Positions 6,777 through 16,940 of a stretch of 17,180 nt of DNA are shown piece after piece. A program made the translations under genes and the position numbers. This DNA is from Thermomucor indicae-seudaticae. Lineage: Eukaryota > Mucoromycota > Mucoromycetes > Mucorales > Lichtheimiaceae. Where the stretch lies: contig JSYX01000696.1 of NCBI GenBank assembly GCA_000787465.1, positions 1 to 17,180 on the forward strand, read 5' to 3'. A model generated the notes under the pieces. That model was not told the DNA's origin. It saw nothing but the letters and a program-made list of their open reading frames with translations, and ran no database searches. How positions within the stretch are numbered: the first letter of the stretch is position 1; every line of letters starts with the position of its first letter.

Positions 6777-8440
6777 ATGGCATCACACATTCTACTAAAC
6801 AGACTTCGGAAAGAATTAGGCAAGTTTGCTTGTGTCTTATCCACCGCGACCGACGGCGATTGCTGAGGTGCGTGTTAAACCTTAGCTGATCTGGAGAATG
6901 ATCCACCGCCTGGAATTGTCTGCTACCCTGTAGACGACGACATTACAGAACTCGAATCCTGTAGGCTCTCTTACGCCTGAATCAAAGACGCTTTCTCTGA
7001 TATCACTTTTAGATATCAAGGGACCGCCTGATTCACCCTACGAGCAAGGCATGTTTCGGTTGCAAGTACGCATACCGCAATCATACCCCTTTGAGCCGCC
7101 GCAGATACGTTTCAAGACCAGAATATATCATCCAAACATAGATGAGGGCGGTAGGATCTGTGCGGATATATTGAAGAAAGGTGAACATGGCGGATGGAAA
7201 CCGTCGCTCAATCTCTCGACGACCCTGATTTCATTGAGAGCCTTGATTGCTCAACCGAATCCAGATGATCCATTGGATGCTGACATTGTAAGACGATTTG
7301 TATGGTGGTGGCGATGTTATTTATTCACTGTGTTGCTTTCAGGCAAGAGAATATCAGTTGGATCGAGCATTGTTCCAAAGTAAAGCGAAAGAGTATACGC
7401 TGCGTTATGCTGTTGGCGAACAGTCCAAGACAACATCGGTGAGTTCCTTTGTCTGCTCTTGTAGGATTGAATTTTAACAAGGGCACCTCGTATAGACGAC
7501 AGCTTGGGATGAAACGCAGCCTTTGTCACAGCAAAGTCAGAATGGCATTGTTTCTACAAACGATATGATGAATGGCAGAAGACAGAGTTCAAAATCACGT
7601 TTATCGCTATCCAGCAGGAGGAAAAGCACCAGTAAACCAGATACGGGCAAACCTACAGGTGCCAGTCAATCGGAGACTACTACTGCAGAAAATGAGGAAC
7701 GTTTGTCAATGGAACCGGCGGCAAGCAGTAGAGAAGGGAAAGAGAACAATACTCTCTTGCAGCCGCCAAAAGTCGAGAGCAACAACAATTGGCAATTGGG
7801 AAGTGCAGCAGTGGAGCCTGTAATATCTGCAGACAACGAAGAAGTGGAAACGCCTATCATAATTGAAGAGAAAGAGCAAGTTCCATTAGTAGCAGGACCG
7901 GTGACGCATGACAATGATAAAGAAGAGAAAGGGAAAAGTCCGGGAGTGTCTGAGGACCAACATAACGGCAAAAAGGAGAATCCAGCCCAGGAAACCAGCA
8001 GAGAAGAAGAGAAAAGGCAAAGTACACCAGTAGAAGATAAAGAGGAAAGTTCAACTGTAAACTCTGGCGGTCCTGTGGAAAAATCGGCTTACGAGGAATC
8101 AGACAATAAGTGCACTCTGTTGGACAGCACAGCTACAGAGGGCAACGAAATATCCAGCGAGATCGACGTCTCCGCAATTAAGAACGTTTGTGGTTGCACC
8201 AGCAGTAGTGACATACAGACACATCAAAGTTCCGGCTCCGCTGGAAACGAAAACCAAGCTAATACGACTACTTCTTCCGAAAAACCCGTTCTCCTGCACA
8301 AGATGATAACATCATTGAGTCAAGCAATTGAACCTTTGAACGATGCCGGCAATCGTTCTGATGTGGAACCAGTACAGCTCCAAAAAAGACCACGGCCAAA
8401 CCTCAGTTTGAGTAAAAGCAAACGGCAAAAGACTGCATAG
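6777..8440 (+). CDS. UBE2T: UBE2T-like E2 ubiquitin-conjugating enzyme with long acidic tail
   Basis: Exons 6777-6819, 6886-6960, 7013-7287, 7343-7438 and 7496-8440 give 477 aa. The UBC fold covers residues 1-155: PPPGI (21-25), the PYEQG turn, YPFEPPQIRF (64-73), the HPN motif (79-81) and catalytic Cys89 in GGRICADIL. Residues 1-89 align with human UBE2T almost without gaps. EPNPDDPL-type sequence (here AQPNPDDPLDADI) follows, as in that family. UBE2T works with the E3 FANCL to monoubiquitinate FANCD2/FANCI in crosslink repair, in the nucleus; I infer the same role here. Exon 5 adds about 310 residues rich in Ser, Glu and Lys, with KEN at 245-247 and 323-325, ending in a basic nuclear-signal-like KRPRPNLSLSKSKRQ. 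Human UBE2T is only 197 aa. Intron 1 is GC-AG (GCAAGT donor), chosen because it alone gives the family spacing between KEL and DPPPG. Confidence 0.93.
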
Positions 8441-8752: not shown

Positions 8753-9887
8753 ATGTCTCTGCCTACTTTTGAAACGCTCGAGGTGACAGACTTCGGCAAT
8801 GGCGTACTCGAGATCGCGTTCAATCGTCCCAAAGTGTTTAACGCGTTTATACCACAATCTTACGACGTAAGTTACTTTTTGCTAGGGGATTCCAAGCAGG
8901 AACTGATAAGGTCTCTTTCGAAAGGACTGGCACGCTGTACAGCGGTGGGTGAACCACGAAGCCGAGCACGTCAAAGTGGTGGTGTTCACGGGTCGGGGCA
9001 AATATTACACATCGGGTCAACAACTCGAACCACCAGACCTTTCAGAAGCCGGTCTAGCAGAGTTGGATAGACAGCAACAAGTGATCAAGTAATGTAAAAG
9101 GGGAGGCGTGCGCATATTTTCTTCTTCTCAACGTATATATATATATATATAGGGAGCTTGTGGATGAACTTATTCTCTGCCCCAAGGTGATGATTGCTGC
9201 TGTCAATGGTAAAAAATTACAAATTTGCATACAAGTGCAATGTATTCTTGCTGATAGAGAGAAAAAGGTCCTGCTGTTGGTCTTGGTGTCACGGTTTTGG
9301 GTTTGATGGATGCTGTTTATTCGGTGCCCCACGCCACGTTCCTTGCTCCGTTCATGAAACTGGGTAAAGAAAAAAAATAAATGGTGAATGAACGACTGAC
9401 TGACTCATCCCGGGATAATAAAAGCCTTTACTGCAGAGGCATGCTCAACTTACACATTCCCAAGGTAAGGAAAGATTGTTGTTATCTAACACTGCTCACA
9501 CTATAACTATTGATTATAGAATCTTGGGACCCACGATTGCCACCGAAGTATTGGTATGCCTCTATCTATCTATCTATCGAAAGTCGTGCTTGCGAACTGA
9601 AAGTTTCTTGTACTTAGTTGATGGGCCGACCCTTTACAGCCCAAGAGCTGGAAAAACACGGACTGATCGGACGCATCCTACCCGCGGAAGGCTTCCGAGA
9701 AGCGGTCCTGAAGATAGCTGGCCAAATCGCCCAGTATTCTGCCGAATCCTTACAACTAACAAAGAATATGATGAGAATGGCCAACAAACAGACGCTTTTG
9801 GATGCAAACGCGCAAGAAATGGAAATCTTGTTTCAAAGAATGCGTAGTAAAGATTCTGTCGAAAGCATCAGGAACTTTCTCAGTTAA
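8753..9887 (+). CDS. Enoyl-CoA isomerase/hydratase (crotonase) family, ECI2-like
   Basis: Seven exons: 8753-8866, 8925-9088, 9153-9208, 9268-9363, 9437-9464, 9520-9553 and 9618-9887. They join in phase to 253 aa. Introns are 55-73 nt. Crotonase marks: FNRPKVFNAF near the N-terminus, VVFTGRGKYYTSGQQL (first oxyanion-hole strand, around residue 69), NGPAVGLGVTVL (second hole) and EACSTYTFP, which matches the GCSSYTFP block of ECI2-type delta3,delta2-enoyl-CoA isomerases. Glu144, made by the exon 4/5 junction codon, is the probable catalytic acid/base. The expected role is shifting double bonds during beta-oxidation of unsaturated fatty acids. The C-terminus, RNFLS, is not a clear PTS1, and no N-terminal targeting sequence is evident, so location is open. 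The loop before EACS is about three residues shorter than usual. The start at 8753 is chosen because upstream in-frame sequence is T-rich and leader-like. Confidence 0.88.
9134..9151. repeat. (TA)n microsatellite in intron 2 of the isomerase gene
   Basis: Nine TA units run directly into the acceptor AG of intron 2, replacing the usual polypyrimidine tract. Length change here could affect splicing. Confidence 0.85.
9561..9578. repeat. (TCTA)n microsatellite in intron 6
   Basis: About four and a half TCTA units just after the donor site of the sixth intron of the isomerase gene. Confidence 0.85.
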
Positions 9888-10100: not shown

Positions 10101-11882
10101 TTACAACGGGTCTTTATTGTTATTCGATAAGTTTCTGTCGTTGCTGTTCGGAGCAGGAGCTATAGGCGCAGTCATTGCCAACTTTTGCCGTTCTTCTTCT
10201 GATATTGGCTGATGTGAAAATAAACACTCTTCTCCAGAAGTGCAATAGCCTTTCAAATGATAGTATTTACAAGGTCCCGTCATGCTATGTAACCTGTACC
10301 TGGTTTCGCGTGTTAATGGCTCGTGAGAGAACGGACATTGCTCCCCCGTGTCGCAAATGCCTTTGATATGGTAAAATCGACAAGGTTCCGCCCGCAAATC
10401 CTGAATAACATAAAATCAGTCAATTGGGATTTGTCTACATTATGTAAAAAAAAGACTTACATGGAGAAATGGACACGATTCCCCTCTGGAACATGAACCG
10501 GTCTTGAAATGCCGACAGACAAGACGAATTCGTTGCTCTCCCTCGTGACGAAATTTGCAATTTTCTCCCTATAACAAGGCGATAAGAAACAAACATTTGA
10601 ATAAGTTGCATAAATGACCACTTACAGCGTTACAAATTCCAGCAATCCAGAATTTGCATACAGACGTCTCCTTCCGCTGCGACGGCTCCGTCTTCTTAGG
10701 TGCTACTGGAGATAGTTTTGCATACCGTGATTCTGCCTTTCGTGGCGTTACTTGAGATTCTGGCTTCTGTACGTTTGCGCGGGGCGTCGGTTCCTTCTTT
10801 TGCTTTTTAGGCGCTATTTCCAGAACGAAAACAGTCAGGTTATATCGAATATATATGATAAACACGCATTTGACCACTGCTTACCAGCTATTGTTTCGTT
10901 GGGTAAGTCTTGCGAGGTTTCCGCTGAAATTTCTTCATAAGATCTTTTCTTGGTCTTTTCGTGCAACTCCAATAAATGGTCGAAATCCATGTCTTGGTCT
11001 TCATGTTCCTCAGGAATATTATCAAGATTAATGTGTGCGGGCTGCAGGCGCCGCTTTTTTTCCATCTTCCAAAGGGATCATCAGTAAATCGATTGTTATT
11101 CTGTTAACTAATAGCGAGTTCCCTACCATTTTTTGCTTTTTGGTCAGTTTCCTCTTGCGTTTGGATGAGCTATCACTGCTGGCTTGAGCTAATGGCAATG
11201 GTGGTGGTTGTAATGGTGGCGGCAATGGAGGCTTGTCAGAGATGGTGGTAGGCGGAAGAGCTGTATATTTCATAGCATTGGAAGATATATCGTTTAATAG
11301 CTTTGACAGAAAATCGCCTTCTTCTTTCGGAACTGCCGAGACAGTCGATGCTTGCGGACGACGGGAGGATTCAGCGCCGGAGGAGGTCCGTAAGGTCAAG
11401 GGTCTGTTTGTCATAGTGGGTTGAGCAGCTTTAATTCCTAAAGAAGGAGCCTGTTGGCTCGTTGCTGCTTTGGTCGGAATATCTTGGGGTGGTGGGTCTA
11501 CCGTCGCGCGATTACTGAGTGTATAGTTTTCGGCTTCTGTGCCTTCTTTCTTAACTGCCGAGACGGTCAATGCTTGCGCACGACGGGAGGATTCAGCGTC
11601 GGAGGAGGTTCGGGGTGGTGATTCTACGGTCGCGCGATTACTGGGTGTAGAGTTTTCGGCTTCTGTGCCTTCTTTTGGAACTGTCGAGATGGTCGATGCT
11701 TGCGCATGACGGAAGGATTCAGCGTCGGAGGAGGTCCGGGCTGGTGGTTCTACCGTCGCGCGATTACTGGGTGTTGTGCCTGTAGGCGCTTTAACTGAGA
11801 ACAAGCTCAAGATAAAACTTTTGTCATTAAGATCAACCGATGACTTGGGTGGACTTTGGTGGTTGGGATCAATCGAAGACAT
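10101..11882 (-). CDS. Four-finger CCCH zinc-finger protein with tandem repeats
   Basis: Exons 11882-11127, 11065-10885, 10813-10626, 10568-10461 and 10400-10101 give 510 aa. All introns are 57-71 nt with GTAAG or GTAGG donors. Four CCCH fingers sit at the C-terminal end: C365-C373-C379-H383, C393-C401-C407-H411, C418-C427-C433-H437 and C455-C464-C470-H474, spaced C-x7/8-C-x5-C-x3-H. Such arrays bind RNA; ZC3H4/6/8-like or other mRNA-processing proteins are the nearest type, but the orthologue is not fixed. Residues about 37-190 are low-complexity and carry a 42-residue tandem repeat. Next come DFLSKLLNDISS, a proline-rich run (PPLPPPLQPPPLPL) and a basic KRKRKLTKKQK nuclear-signal-like block, then an acidic helix region. 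The gene converges on the isomerase gene with 213 bp between stops. Confidence 0.9.
11395..11774 (-). repeat. 126-nt tandem repeat inside the CCCH gene
   Basis: Two full units (11774-11649 and 11648-11523) encode TPSNRATVEPPARTSSDAES-type 42-aa repeats. A third starts at 11522, diverges after about 12 codons, and resumes as RTSSGAESSRRPQASTV near 11394. The unit keeps frame, so copy number can vary without breaking the protein. Confidence 0.85.
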
Positions 11883-13275: not shown

Positions 13276-13439
13276 TTTCTTCGGATACCAGAAAAGCAGT
13301 CACCTGGGCGCCACATACCGGAAAACTGGATACCTCACACTACACTGGAGGGTAAAAAGTTAAGGCACGATTTCCTTCAACTCAGAAATGACAAAGAACA
13401 ACACTGTACGTACAACGAGTTGTAACAATCGAAAACCCT
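13276..13439 (-). other. 3' flank of the Fanzor relic / promoter of the C2H2 gene
   Basis: In Fanzor and TnpB loci the guide (omega) RNA is encoded at and past the 3' end of the nuclease gene, so this is where a remnant would lie. Small palindromes are visible on the plus strand (TGTACGTACA near 13405; ACAACGAGTTGT near 13412; GGGTAC/CC near 13445). No conserved structure can be proved by eye. Confidence 0.25.
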
Positions 13440-13740
13440 CTACAGGGTACCCACTTCCGCTGTGGTGATATTTTCTTCCGGCTGGATTATACGTCCAAAT
13501 ACATTGGGTCGACCTTTACCAGTCCAAACAGCTTCAGCAATCTTATAGAGACCCTTGGACGCGTTCACACCTCTATTCCATAGTATAGTACAGTGTTTGC
13601 AAGCCAAGATGCTATGGTGAGATGCTCCCTCTAAAGATCTCTACTTCTCGAGCGTCCTCCGTTGGCATGAATTACAGACCTGGATACAAGAAAATCTTAG
13701 TTTGAGGAGAAGATCCGCGAAAATATTTTTGTTCAGTAAG

Positions 13741-14857
13741 AGGTCGGGCCAAAAACCTATGCTCCTCTTTTTTTAATTAATCTCAATTTTCTGGATTTTT
13801 GCCTTCACAACCCCCCTGAAATTTTGACCATATAAACTTTAGCATATGTTCTTTTTATATCAAAGCTCTTGAAGCGTTTCAAATAGTTTACAGCAGACTT
13901 CATATAGTAGGGAAAACGAAGGGTCCAAAAAACAGAGAAGAAATCGGGGCTTAAATAGCAAAATTACGCTGTGCAGTCATTCTATTTCTTCTCCAACCCG
14001 TGTGGAATCCTCAGCCGTTTATGTCTGATTTTAGAATATAACGTCATTCTGTGCCATCCGTTCCCCAATGCCAGAGGCCTAAGTAAGAAGCCTGCGGGAG
14101 TTGAGAGCTGTTAATCGTCTCAGGAAGAAGCTATGCTTCTTTAAAGATGCACGTACGTTCATGAGACGCACATTTCGTTTGCCGACATGGCAGCGAGATC
14201 GCGTTTTGGCGCTTGTACGTTCATTTTACAACAATGAAGCTTTAAGAAAAGTGGTCTATACGCGTCTCAGGAATATTTTTTATTAATACGTCATGCTTGG
14301 GTCACTATATAAAAAATTGACAAAGTGAGGTTTTGGAAACCTCTTAACGGCGTTCTATACTCAGAGATCAGTCACGTATGCTGCTTTCAGTGCATAATCG
14401 GTTTTGGACCACTAAAAATAAAACCGAATGACTAGCAATGCCCGAGCTGCCTGGGTTCGGTGTCATCTTCAACCTACTCGGAACATAAGAAAGAAAACAG
14501 ATACGGAGGTCAACTAACAAAGAGTGCAAGAAGTGTCAGAGCACAGAGGCGACGAACACAAAAACGTGGTATAAAACTAGGCTTAGTTAATGATTATTAC
14601 ACGCGTTCTGTATGTGATGGAGGCTATTTTTCAATCGAAACTATGTAGTGGTCATCAACAACGAATTTTCTTGAAAACTAGGTAGCTGGTTATATGGCAA
14701 CGAAAAGCGTGACACCAGACAGACGGACGGACACTGACGATTCCTAAAGGCGTTCATTTCATTCTCCGAATGACTTCGTATAGAAGGCCTAAAAAGAAGA
14801 AAAACGACAAAAACTGCTGAGCTGCAAAAAAGAGGACCATAGGTTTTGGCCAGACCT
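13741..14857. mobile_element. 1.1-kb inverted-repeat element inside the Fanzor relic
   Basis: The ends are inverted copies of about 33 bp. The left end reads AGGTCGGGCCAAAAACCTAT then GCTCCTCTTTTTT. The right end, on the other strand, reads AGGTCTGGCCAAAACCTATG then GTCCTCTTTTTT. Only two or three positions differ. A TA sits at the right outer edge (14857-14858), but the left outer edge is GA, so a TA duplication is only half supported. No transposase domain is visible; the longest internal frame (14101-14286, plus) is basic and unrecognised. It is therefore likely a non-autonomous element. It lies wholly inside a 1182-nt segment (13680-14861) bounded by GT and AG. Confidence 0.7.
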
Positions 14858-15305
14858 ACACTTGTGAAGACAGATATTCGTCCACGGTCACCACGACGGT
14901 GTCCCCTGCTCTTTCTCTCCTCTTCAAGTTGGCCCACAGCTTGTTGACAAGACGAGATCTGTGGCCCTTAAATTCCATGCCGCTCTGGTTGAACATGCCG
15001 CTTTCAAATGCGATCAAGGGTATCTTACCCTCATTGTCAATCAATGGCTTGCATGGCTTCCACCTGTGAGGTGCTTTGGTGGATAGTATGCTGGATCTAC
15101 ATGCAGAGGTCGGTTGTTCAACTCGGTTAATAAGAGTACAAAGTAGCGCTAGCATTCAGGCAATATGCAAACGGGTCTTGATAACTTACCCCGACCATGA
15201 TTTTCTCTCGTTTGTTTCCTGTTCTTGTTTTTGACGATCGCGTTTCCTTTTGGCCTTTTTCGTGGCCCTATTCTGCTTTCTTGTTTTCCTGTTTCGCGTG
15301 GTCTA

Positions 15306-15378
15306 GGGCTCTTAATGGGACGGGTGGGACGGGACAAATGGGACGGGAAGTCCCGGGACCCGTCCCAATTAAGAGCCC
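15306..15378. mobile_element. 73-bp foldback MITE with TA target duplication
   Basis: Starts GGGCTCTTAATGGGACGGGT and ends with the near-perfect reverse complement (ACCCGTCCCAATTAAGAGCC plus C). TA flanks it on both sides (15304-15305 and 15379-15380). Deleting the insert and one TA restores a Fanzor-like frame (RRKKSKLDHAKQENKKAE) across the site, which supports a real insertion. The core holds repeats of GGGACGGG. It should fold into a very stable hairpin. Confidence 0.85.
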
Positions 15379-15993
15379 TAGCTTGGACTTCTTTCGCCGG
15401 CTTTTGTCATATGGTGCGCGTCACCAATACTCGACAATTTTTGGACCAATTTTCCAGCTCTTATTAAGAACGCTACTCCCCCCAAAGCCGAAAAACTAAA
15501 CCACAAGATCGTTATTTACGCCTTTAAAGAATAAATGTTGTGGATTAGAATCTTCAATGTCATAGGCAAAGAACGAGAAATAAGCGTCCAAAGACGGGCA
15601 ATCTGAATTTAAAATCATAAGTGGATCTGGAAATTGGCAGTTGATCGGTACACCTTGCTATTACCATATAGAGTAGCCTGAATCACGGAAAAACGTTTAC
15701 CCGGAATCAGTCGCTGCTCATCGTGCGACTTTTCCAAGCGCGTAGCGCACTTAGCTCACATACGCGTGAGACGGTTGCATCGGGTGGAATCCCCTTAAGT
15801 TTTGAGAAACTTTGCTGCTGATAATACTTGTCACTACTTTGCCCGATGCTATTCGGCTTAAGGTTGGTGTACCTGTTTATCTGATCCGTCGTTGGAAGTA
15901 TGTCACTGATCAATAAGTCATATTCATCCCACAAGCCGAGCAGATCCGCAGATATCAGCCGCAAGTCGATTTGAAATACGGGTGTTCAGCGCA

Positions 15994-16000
15994 TATAAAA
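15994..16000 (+). promoter_or_regulatory. TATA box before the transposase fragment
   Basis: TATAAAA about 26-75 bases upstream of the plus-strand ATGs at 16026, 16063 and 16076 inside the transposon. It would fit the promoter of a shortened gene. Confidence 0.35.
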
Positions 16001-16075
16001 GGATGACGCGCTGACGCTTGTCAAAATGCCGTATTTGTTACGTCTTTTAAACTCCCAATAGTATGGGCAAAATTA

Positions 16076-16540
16076 GTGCTAAAAAGTGTGTCGCAAGTCT
16101 GCGCCAAAGAGCCAGTAATGGGTCTTACATATCCGGAAACTCTAAGGAACAGTCTGTATCTGAATCACTGCGAATCAATCCTGACGAGGATAGCAGCACA
16201 ACCGGATTTCCAGGAACAAAAGTCGGCTTTGGAGGAGGTAATTGCGAACAGCAACCACATCTTCAAGATGTACCTGAAGCTTGACAGCAAGTGTAATTTC
16301 GTCGAACGCTATTGGGGCGTGGTCAAACGCATCACAAAAGAGCAGTGCGATTACTCCTTTGCTGCGCTGCAAGCCAACCTTCCCCGTTTCCTTGACAGCT
16401 TGAGCTTAACGACTATTCGAAAGTGCGAGAGAAAATCATGGCGGAACCTAGACGCTTATGATAAAGGACTGGAAGGTTTAGAGGCTGAGAAGGCCGTAAA
16501 GAAGTATAAGTCCCATAGGAGAACATTCCTTGACGAATAA
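16076..16540 (+). pseudogene. DDE transposase, C-terminal fragment
   Basis: About 154 codons, ending FLDE and TAA. The arrangement CNFVERYWGVVKR, then CDYSFAALQANLPRFLDS, then AYDKGLEG...AVKKYKSHRR is what I recall as the tail of transposases spread through Mucoromycota genomes. Glu in FVERYWG is the probable last acid of the DDE triad. The two Asp blocks are absent, so the product cannot transpose. The start at 16076 is simply the first open codon; homology-like sequence begins near 16130. Confidence 0.7.
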
Positions 16541-16704
16541 AGCACAGCGTTTCTCACTTGAGCAGATACCTTCTATGGTAATCTGAGTCCAAAATGTAAG
16601 CGGTGTCTGAAATCAAAAATTGGCAGGTTTTTCAAAAAATTGTCGAGTCTCGGTGACGCGCACCATATATCTTTACGGAGAAAATTTCAAGTCACATTTG
16701 CACG

Positions 16705-16940
16705 CATTGGCTTAGCGGGCCAACCGGGTTGGGCCGCCCGCCCGTCCGCCTAATTAATACAGGCCGGGTCAGGATTGTAGCCTATTAATAACAGGTCGAG
16801 TCGGGCCAAGGCTCAATCCAGTCCGATCCGACCCGACCCGTTAAGTAACTCTAGGGTCAAGCCTAAAACCGACCCGTCTACCCCTTCACGGGTTGAACCC
16901 GTGGTGACCCGTCACAACCCGTCGACCCTCTGGACCCGAT
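16705..16940. repeat. GACCCG/CGGGTC-rich degenerate repeat
   Basis: Dense irregular copies of GACCCG, CGGGTC and GGGCC in both directions, with small hairpins such as ACGGGTTGAACCCGT (near 16888). GC content is far above the surroundings. It resembles the GGGACGGG core of the 73-bp element and may be another hairpin element. No coding frame is recognisable. Confidence 0.65.

Follow-up and report, generated by a model that had tools for sequence, protein, structure and literature searches.

What remains of a Fanzor gene after other transposons have entered it, and which lesions marked its death, are the questions raised by the minus strand of a 17,180-nt stretch of the Thermomucor indicae-seudaticae genome. 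The window covers contig C575 from end to end, in an assembly of 24.8 Mb and 735 contigs. The initial annotation had read one Fanzor gene through three inserts (1254 bp, 73 bp and 1182 nt) and expected a dated series of insertions. Our analysis points with high probability to a dead Fanzor1-type copy reduced to its C-terminal fifth, with two nested elements (A and B) in intron 2, a MITE in an exon and an end at a third element (C), and perhaps with a carrier transposon around it. The process is ordinary pseudogene decay, unusually well resolved.

Descent from Fanzor proteins

Comparison with copies in the same genome and with a Mucor relative assigned the minus strand to the C-terminal fifth of a Fanzor1-type gene. 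In tblastn, a full-length relative from Mucor plumbeus (P0012, 793 aa) aligned through residues 669–730 to positions 15086–14859 and through residues 704–788 to 13754–13494, while a 350-aa relative (P0016) aligned through residues 219–290 and 268–349 on either side of the gap. The second alignment of each protein starts within intron 2, the true exon beginning at the zinc ribbon, and in both proteins the end of the RuvC-II exon and the last exon meet at neighbouring residues. The proposal of Fanzor-like sequence on this strand was thus borne out by the RuvC-II exon and by the exon with the zinc ribbon and WNR-NASK motif. A full-length relative had also been expected to align across all gaps; P0012 spans the intron-2 gap, but tblastn gave no further match in the window outside its residues 669–788.

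Family evidence came mainly from these relatives. Both scored above the 26.3-bit cut-off of PF07282 (Cas12f1-like TNB), P0012 with 37.0 bits and P0016 with 36.8; the C-terminal frame of locus L018 lay below it, at 22.7 bits. Among PDB chains, the Spizellomyces Fanzor (SpuFz1) was found by a 23-row profile of relatives (E = 3.8e-12) and by the single sequences of P0012 (E = 1.2e-4) and P0016 (E = 6.2e-7), whereas PDB searches from same-genome relatives gave nothing or noise only. Nine open frames of the region matched no Fanzor family in Pfam. As to the guide RNA that Fanzor1 draws from its transposon end, the window had no Rfam match at gathering score. The AlphaFold model of P0012 was poor (pLDDT 49.7) and that of P0016 middling (64.5); a fold search with the latter ranked seven Fanzor chains first with a best TM of 0.27, which is supportive only. 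The 23 related proteins include Mucorales sequences from Mucor plumbeus, Helicostylum, Mycotypha, Phycomyces and others, in keeping with the Mucoromycota proteomes named in the initial annotation, and the accessible portion of Bao and Jurka (2013, PMC3627910) gives Fanzor1 families for Rhizopus, Phycomyces and Mucor. On sequence evidence, the window copy descends from Fanzor proteins.

A DNA search with the RuvC-II piece reached four places in the genome: the window itself and contigs C344 (95%), C351 (91%) and C476 (84%). The three close copies are loci L005, L006 and L007. Used as a protein query, the upstream exon of the C344 copy returned 30 rows on 29 contigs, and Fanzor-like sequence is present on at least 29 contigs. 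Three coding pieces, all on the minus strand, remain in the window. The last exon (13440–13679), delimited by translation, comparison with L005 and L007, and tblastn with P0012 and P0016, holds the C4 zinc ribbon and RuvC-III helix in the order CNSC, CKHC, WNRGVNASK. The RuvC-II exon (14862–15126), located by tblastn and motif patterns, carries the catalytic Glu in DEYLSSQ, and a Lys/Arg-rich piece (15190–15411; YDKSRRKK...), split by the MITE, forms the upstream limit of recognisable Fanzor.

On the other side, the 3' flank (13341–13439, minus strand) is shared with L005 as far as 13348. It includes a sequence of about 60 nt (13341–13401), beginning with TACACTGGAGGGTAAAAAGTTAAGGCA on the plus strand, that recurs in the C344 copy and at five further places in the genome, with 87–89% identity in those five. 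At these five places it occurs alone. Across the examined loci, this candidate carrier end was confined to two places, the C344 copy and the window; L031 added a match of 21 nt. Judged from its sequence, the 60-nt end, which begins TACACTGG, may mark one extremity of a mariner-like Fanzor carrier flanked by TA, whose opposite end was not found.

Elements inside the gene

The 1182-nt segment had been described as an insertion. Foreign DNA is indeed present there, but the segment coincides exactly with a spliceosomal intron (intron 2, 13680–14861, minus strand), and the foreign part, about 1118 nt (13739–14856), consists of two nested elements. In L005, L006 and L007 the corresponding intron measures 59–60 nt (counted on the alignment), starts with GTATG and ends with AG; the window keeps the donor GT (14861) and the acceptor AG (13680). 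The intron lies between TSQ and the residue preceding the first zinc-ribbon Cys. Three of four more distant loci (L013, L031 and L035) have a GT-AG intron at this position, the fourth (L014) being ambiguous, whereas L018, L020 and L033 read straight through it; by this comparison, intron 2 is not universal among the Fanzors of this genome. The latter three belong to a second Fanzor group (L018, L020, L023, L026 and L033) with a different RuvC-I signature, LWAIDP or LWAADP. Locus L020 also has stop-containing sequence between its zinc-ribbon cysteine pairs, likely an intron.

Element A (13739–14856, minus strand) is a multicopy, apparently TA-flanked element with terminal inverted repeats of about 35 nt, as judged by eye, and a candidate member of Tc1/mariner. 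It measures about 640 nt without B, and the B-free copy L041 has 639 nt. Genome matches to the insert fall mainly at query positions 2–69 and 544–1121, which correspond to A, and at 65–547, which correspond to B. A TA follows A at all seven other right ends compared and comes directly before it at most of the seven left ends, with both ends of one copy compared only for L041 and L043. The target site in the window is a few bases off that of the relatives (GTGTACTG, by eye, vs GTATG), and the exact duplication is uncertain.

Element B (14312–14790, minus strand; ends uncertain by a few bases in a T run) is Helitron2-like and was recognised by A copies without it (L041 and L061) and by folding; L042 is a separate copy of B. 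Its 5' repeat lies at 14789–14778, its 3' repeat at 14360–14349 and its predicted 3' hairpin at 14343–14327. The asymmetric inverted repeats, GGCCTTCTATAC and GTATAGAACGCC, are complementary at 11 of 12 positions in the window, and the 3' repeat of L042 is altered (GTATAGAACGTCC). The same 7-bp stem is predicted for the 3' hairpin in the window and in L042, not beyond shuffled sequences (z -1.28 and -0.94), and the 5' hairpin stands out in L042 (z -2.94) and is weak in the window (z -1.32). The B-free copies of A show that B lies inside A. The reading of a dead Fanzor gene with nested transposons holds for this decayed copy.

The insert annotated as 73 bp is likewise foreign, but it measures 77 bp (15304–15380) and is accompanied by an 8-bp duplication. 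It forms a near-perfect inverted repeat starting TAGGGCTCTTAAT at both ends. The flanking target duplications (15296–15303 and 15381–15388) read GACCACGC and GTCCAAGC on the minus strand; they differ at 2 of 8 bases, each being one change from the uninterrupted site GACCAAGC in L006. The foldback is far beyond that of shuffled sequences (z -10.83), and the genome search gave 29 match rows, the window's own included. Together the MITE and its duplication add 85 nt and shift the reading frame. MITEs of the hAT type duplicate 8 bp of their target and carry short terminal inverted repeats whose first bases are TAGGG. The window element resembles them in its 8-bp duplication and TAGGG-type ends, which are the basis for assigning it to the hAT type, although it differs in being just 77 bp long and nearly all one palindrome. 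A search for empty sites had been proposed, and it was productive: the sites of both A and the MITE are empty in all three close copies (L005, L006 and L007).

The upstream end at element C

The remaining insert, annotated as 1254 bp, was taken as the 1260-bp element C (15409–16668, plus strand), a remnant of an inverted-repeat DNA transposon with 48-nt inverted ends (83%); no target duplication was seen at them. Its relatives occur on seven other contigs with 69–91% identity (short end pieces up to 95%) and include a 2.0-kb relative on contig C687. An open frame at 16007–16540 is possibly the tail of a DDE transposase; a related copy gave a weak DDE_3 match (E = 0.1), below the cut-off. The inner part of C (15593–16080) is missing from the C687 copy, and from about 15655 onwards no genome match is listed for it.

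The left flank of C is Fanzor sequence (30 nt, 93% to L005 and 90% to L007). For the right flank, the best blastn match to the upstream Fanzor DNA of L005, L007, L011 and L013 had E = 0.032, and in tblastn with Fanzor protein, once the left-flank piece itself (0.076) is set aside, the best match had E = 0.22. Fanzor sequence beyond 16668 was rejected on these searches against relatives. What adjoins C at 16669–16854 is a truncated hAT-like repeat, delimited by its match to L090, an element on contig C55, with the upper end placed by eye. Starting from the last five bases of C, positions 16664–16791 match L090 over 129 columns (81%, E = 4e-31), and a second short match lies at 16837–16855. By eye, the C55 element has TAGAG/CTATA-type ends and an apparent 8-bp duplication, GGTGCGTC. 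Since the right flank gave no Fanzor match, removing C would leave Fanzor beside a hAT-like repeat. The expectation that excision would bring Fanzor sequence together at three sites therefore proved right at the MITE and, once modified, at the intron insertion, but failed at C, whose far flank is a different repeat. The Fanzor piece nearest C corresponds, via L007, to about residue 640 of the 793 in P0012, so that the window lacks about four fifths of the protein; as far as the sequence can be read, the Fanzor copy ends at C. The N-terminal part was most likely lost by a rearrangement at C, for example recombination between two C copies.

An alternative is that the junction between Fanzor, C and the repeat is an assembly artefact in which two loci were joined through a repeated element. 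The window is a whole 17-kb contig with a dispersed repeat at its end, and relatives of C lie on seven other contigs, which speaks for a join of this kind. Nevertheless, C is only 69–91% identical to them apart from its short end pieces, and reads should therefore separate the copies, which makes an artefact very unlikely and a genuine end of the Fanzor copy at C the preferred reading. The repeat at the contig end (17028–17180) has matches on 12 other contigs among 17 rows and is LTR-like by eye alone. In the rest of the window, open frames match a ubiquitin-conjugating enzyme (6934–7383, E = 5.1e-35) and enoyl-CoA hydratase/isomerase (9618–9887, E = 5.2e-10), and a minus-strand open frame (10101–10415) has two CCCH zinc fingers (zf-CCCH_9, E = 1.2e-21). 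A 126-bp tandem repeat (11486–11774; 2.3 copies, 89% match) lies inside a 298-aa minus-strand frame without a Pfam match.

Lesions, order of events and comparison with known elements

The catalytic Glu and the [TS][TS]xx motif ahead of the zinc ribbon are present in the window (VVVTVDEYLSSQ, then V across intron 2), as are the four zinc-ribbon cysteines of CNSC and CKHC. A TAG stop lies between the two pairs, at codon 13 of the last exon. This stop is common to the window and L007 and absent from L005, and L006 aligns TGG there; its history is accordingly not simple. The third catalytic Asp is replaced by Gly (WNRG). The RuvC-III pattern was matched by 12 of the 29 loci, including L005 and L007, with Asp in every one of them; the window is among the 17 that were unmatched. 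As given in the available text of PMC11423790, this position is Asp (D606) in SpuFz1 and Asn in Guillardia GtFz1. The window locus (L001) had no pattern match for RuvC-I, which contains the first catalytic Asp. Intron 1 (15127–15189, minus strand; 63 nt), defined by comparison with L005, L006 and L007, is damaged as well. Its branch point has changed from GCTAAC to GCTAGC (15153–15148) and its acceptor from AG to AA (15128–15127), whereas CTAAC is kept in all three close copies and AG in L005 and L007, L006 having GG; judged by these two changes, intron 1 has lost splice signals in the window. Changes specific to the window in two exons, the last and the RuvC-II exon, comprise 15 replacements and 6 silent changes; there is no sign of constraint, and the numbers are small.

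These point changes, namely Asp to Gly, the nonsense codon, and those that removed the branch point and acceptor of intron 1, are the more telling marks of death. Of all the lesions, the largest insertion seems to have done the least damage; it sits within an intron, splicing could remove it, and it was not necessarily fatal to the gene. The most eye-catching insertion, then, need not be the lethal one. It might further be proposed that the 1.2-kb intron is still spliceable and that the nuclease survived the insertion, point changes inactivating it only afterwards. This is unlikely; if true, introns would shelter Fanzor genes from rival transposons in the genome. A copy that remains useful, for example as a Fanzor that no longer cleaves but regulates by binding DNA, would fit the retention of the Glu of RuvC-II, of all four cysteines in the zinc ribbon and of the splice ends of intron 2. 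It must be set against a frameshift, a nonsense codon, the absent N-terminal four fifths, a broken intron 1 and unconstrained replacements, and its probability is close to negligible. The preferred reading is that a Fanzor1-type gene copy, perhaps borne by a TA-flanked DNA transposon, has lost its function and drifts without visible constraint.

Lesions are not confined to the window. In L005 the zinc ribbon contains a separate stop and RuvC-I gave no pattern match, the 3' side of L006 is truncated, and L007 begins at the edge of its contig; given these and the lesions of the window, none of the four subfamily copies looks intact. The proposed search for intact copies found none within the subfamily, though 5 of the 29 loci (L013, L018, L020, L026 and L033) keep all three catalytic motifs by strict pattern, L018 nevertheless having an upstream stop.

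The initial annotation had further held that the order of events can be worked out from repeat divergence. Since the split from L005, the window has accumulated 34 changes of its own at 708 sites and the L005 side 15, when L006 serves as outgroup (L007 in the last exon); if L007 alone is the outgroup, the counts are 28 of 683 and 18. Against the majority sequence of its family, element A shows differences at 22 of 431 sites (seven relatives: 4/325 to 49/431). A and the Fanzor branch have thus diverged to about the same extent, which gives no separation. Element B differs from L042 at 41 of 476 sites and the left part of C from C687 at 17 of 183, both being pairwise figures and not one-branch ones. 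Because B is nested in A, A came before B; this is the sole certain order, and no dated insertion series results. The view that a Fanzor gene, continuous apart from them, took up three insertions independently and that divergence can date them holds for the MITE and, modified, for the intron insertion; the hAT-like repeat beyond C and the equal divergences nonetheless leave it highly improbable, and we retain the reading of a decayed copy that ends at C.

The lesions accompanying the death of one Fanzor copy are documented here together with empty sites from sister copies. With at least 29 Fanzor-like contigs, and three motifs kept at 5 of 29 loci, the genome suits the study of Fanzor gain, introns and loss. 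This kind of finding is ordinary. A separate 2023 survey reportedly discusses introns in Fanzors. Among the literature matches listed, no title or abstract opening reported decayed Fanzor copies of this kind; the words "intron" and "nested" are absent from PMC3627910 and PMC10711439, and "intron" is absent from PMC10432273.

Compared with Helitron2 as described in the accessible part of PMC3627910, element B shares a 12-nt 5' repeat, an inverted partner just upstream of a predicted 3' hairpin and a T-rich site. It differs in its non-autonomous size, with no Rep/helicase seen, and in the weakened 5' hairpin of the window copy. The same portion of that source describes Fanzor1 in TA-flanked mariner elements, including a Spizellomyces element with putative TA duplications, and the candidate carrier in the window could likewise be TA-flanked. 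Compared with Fanzor1 as presented in the available parts of PMC3627910 and PMC10432273, the window copy keeps the C-terminal order of [TS][TS]xx, C4 zinc ribbon and R-D-type helix, but it has R-G in place of R-D, lacks the part in which the first catalytic Asp would lie and can no longer encode a whole protein.
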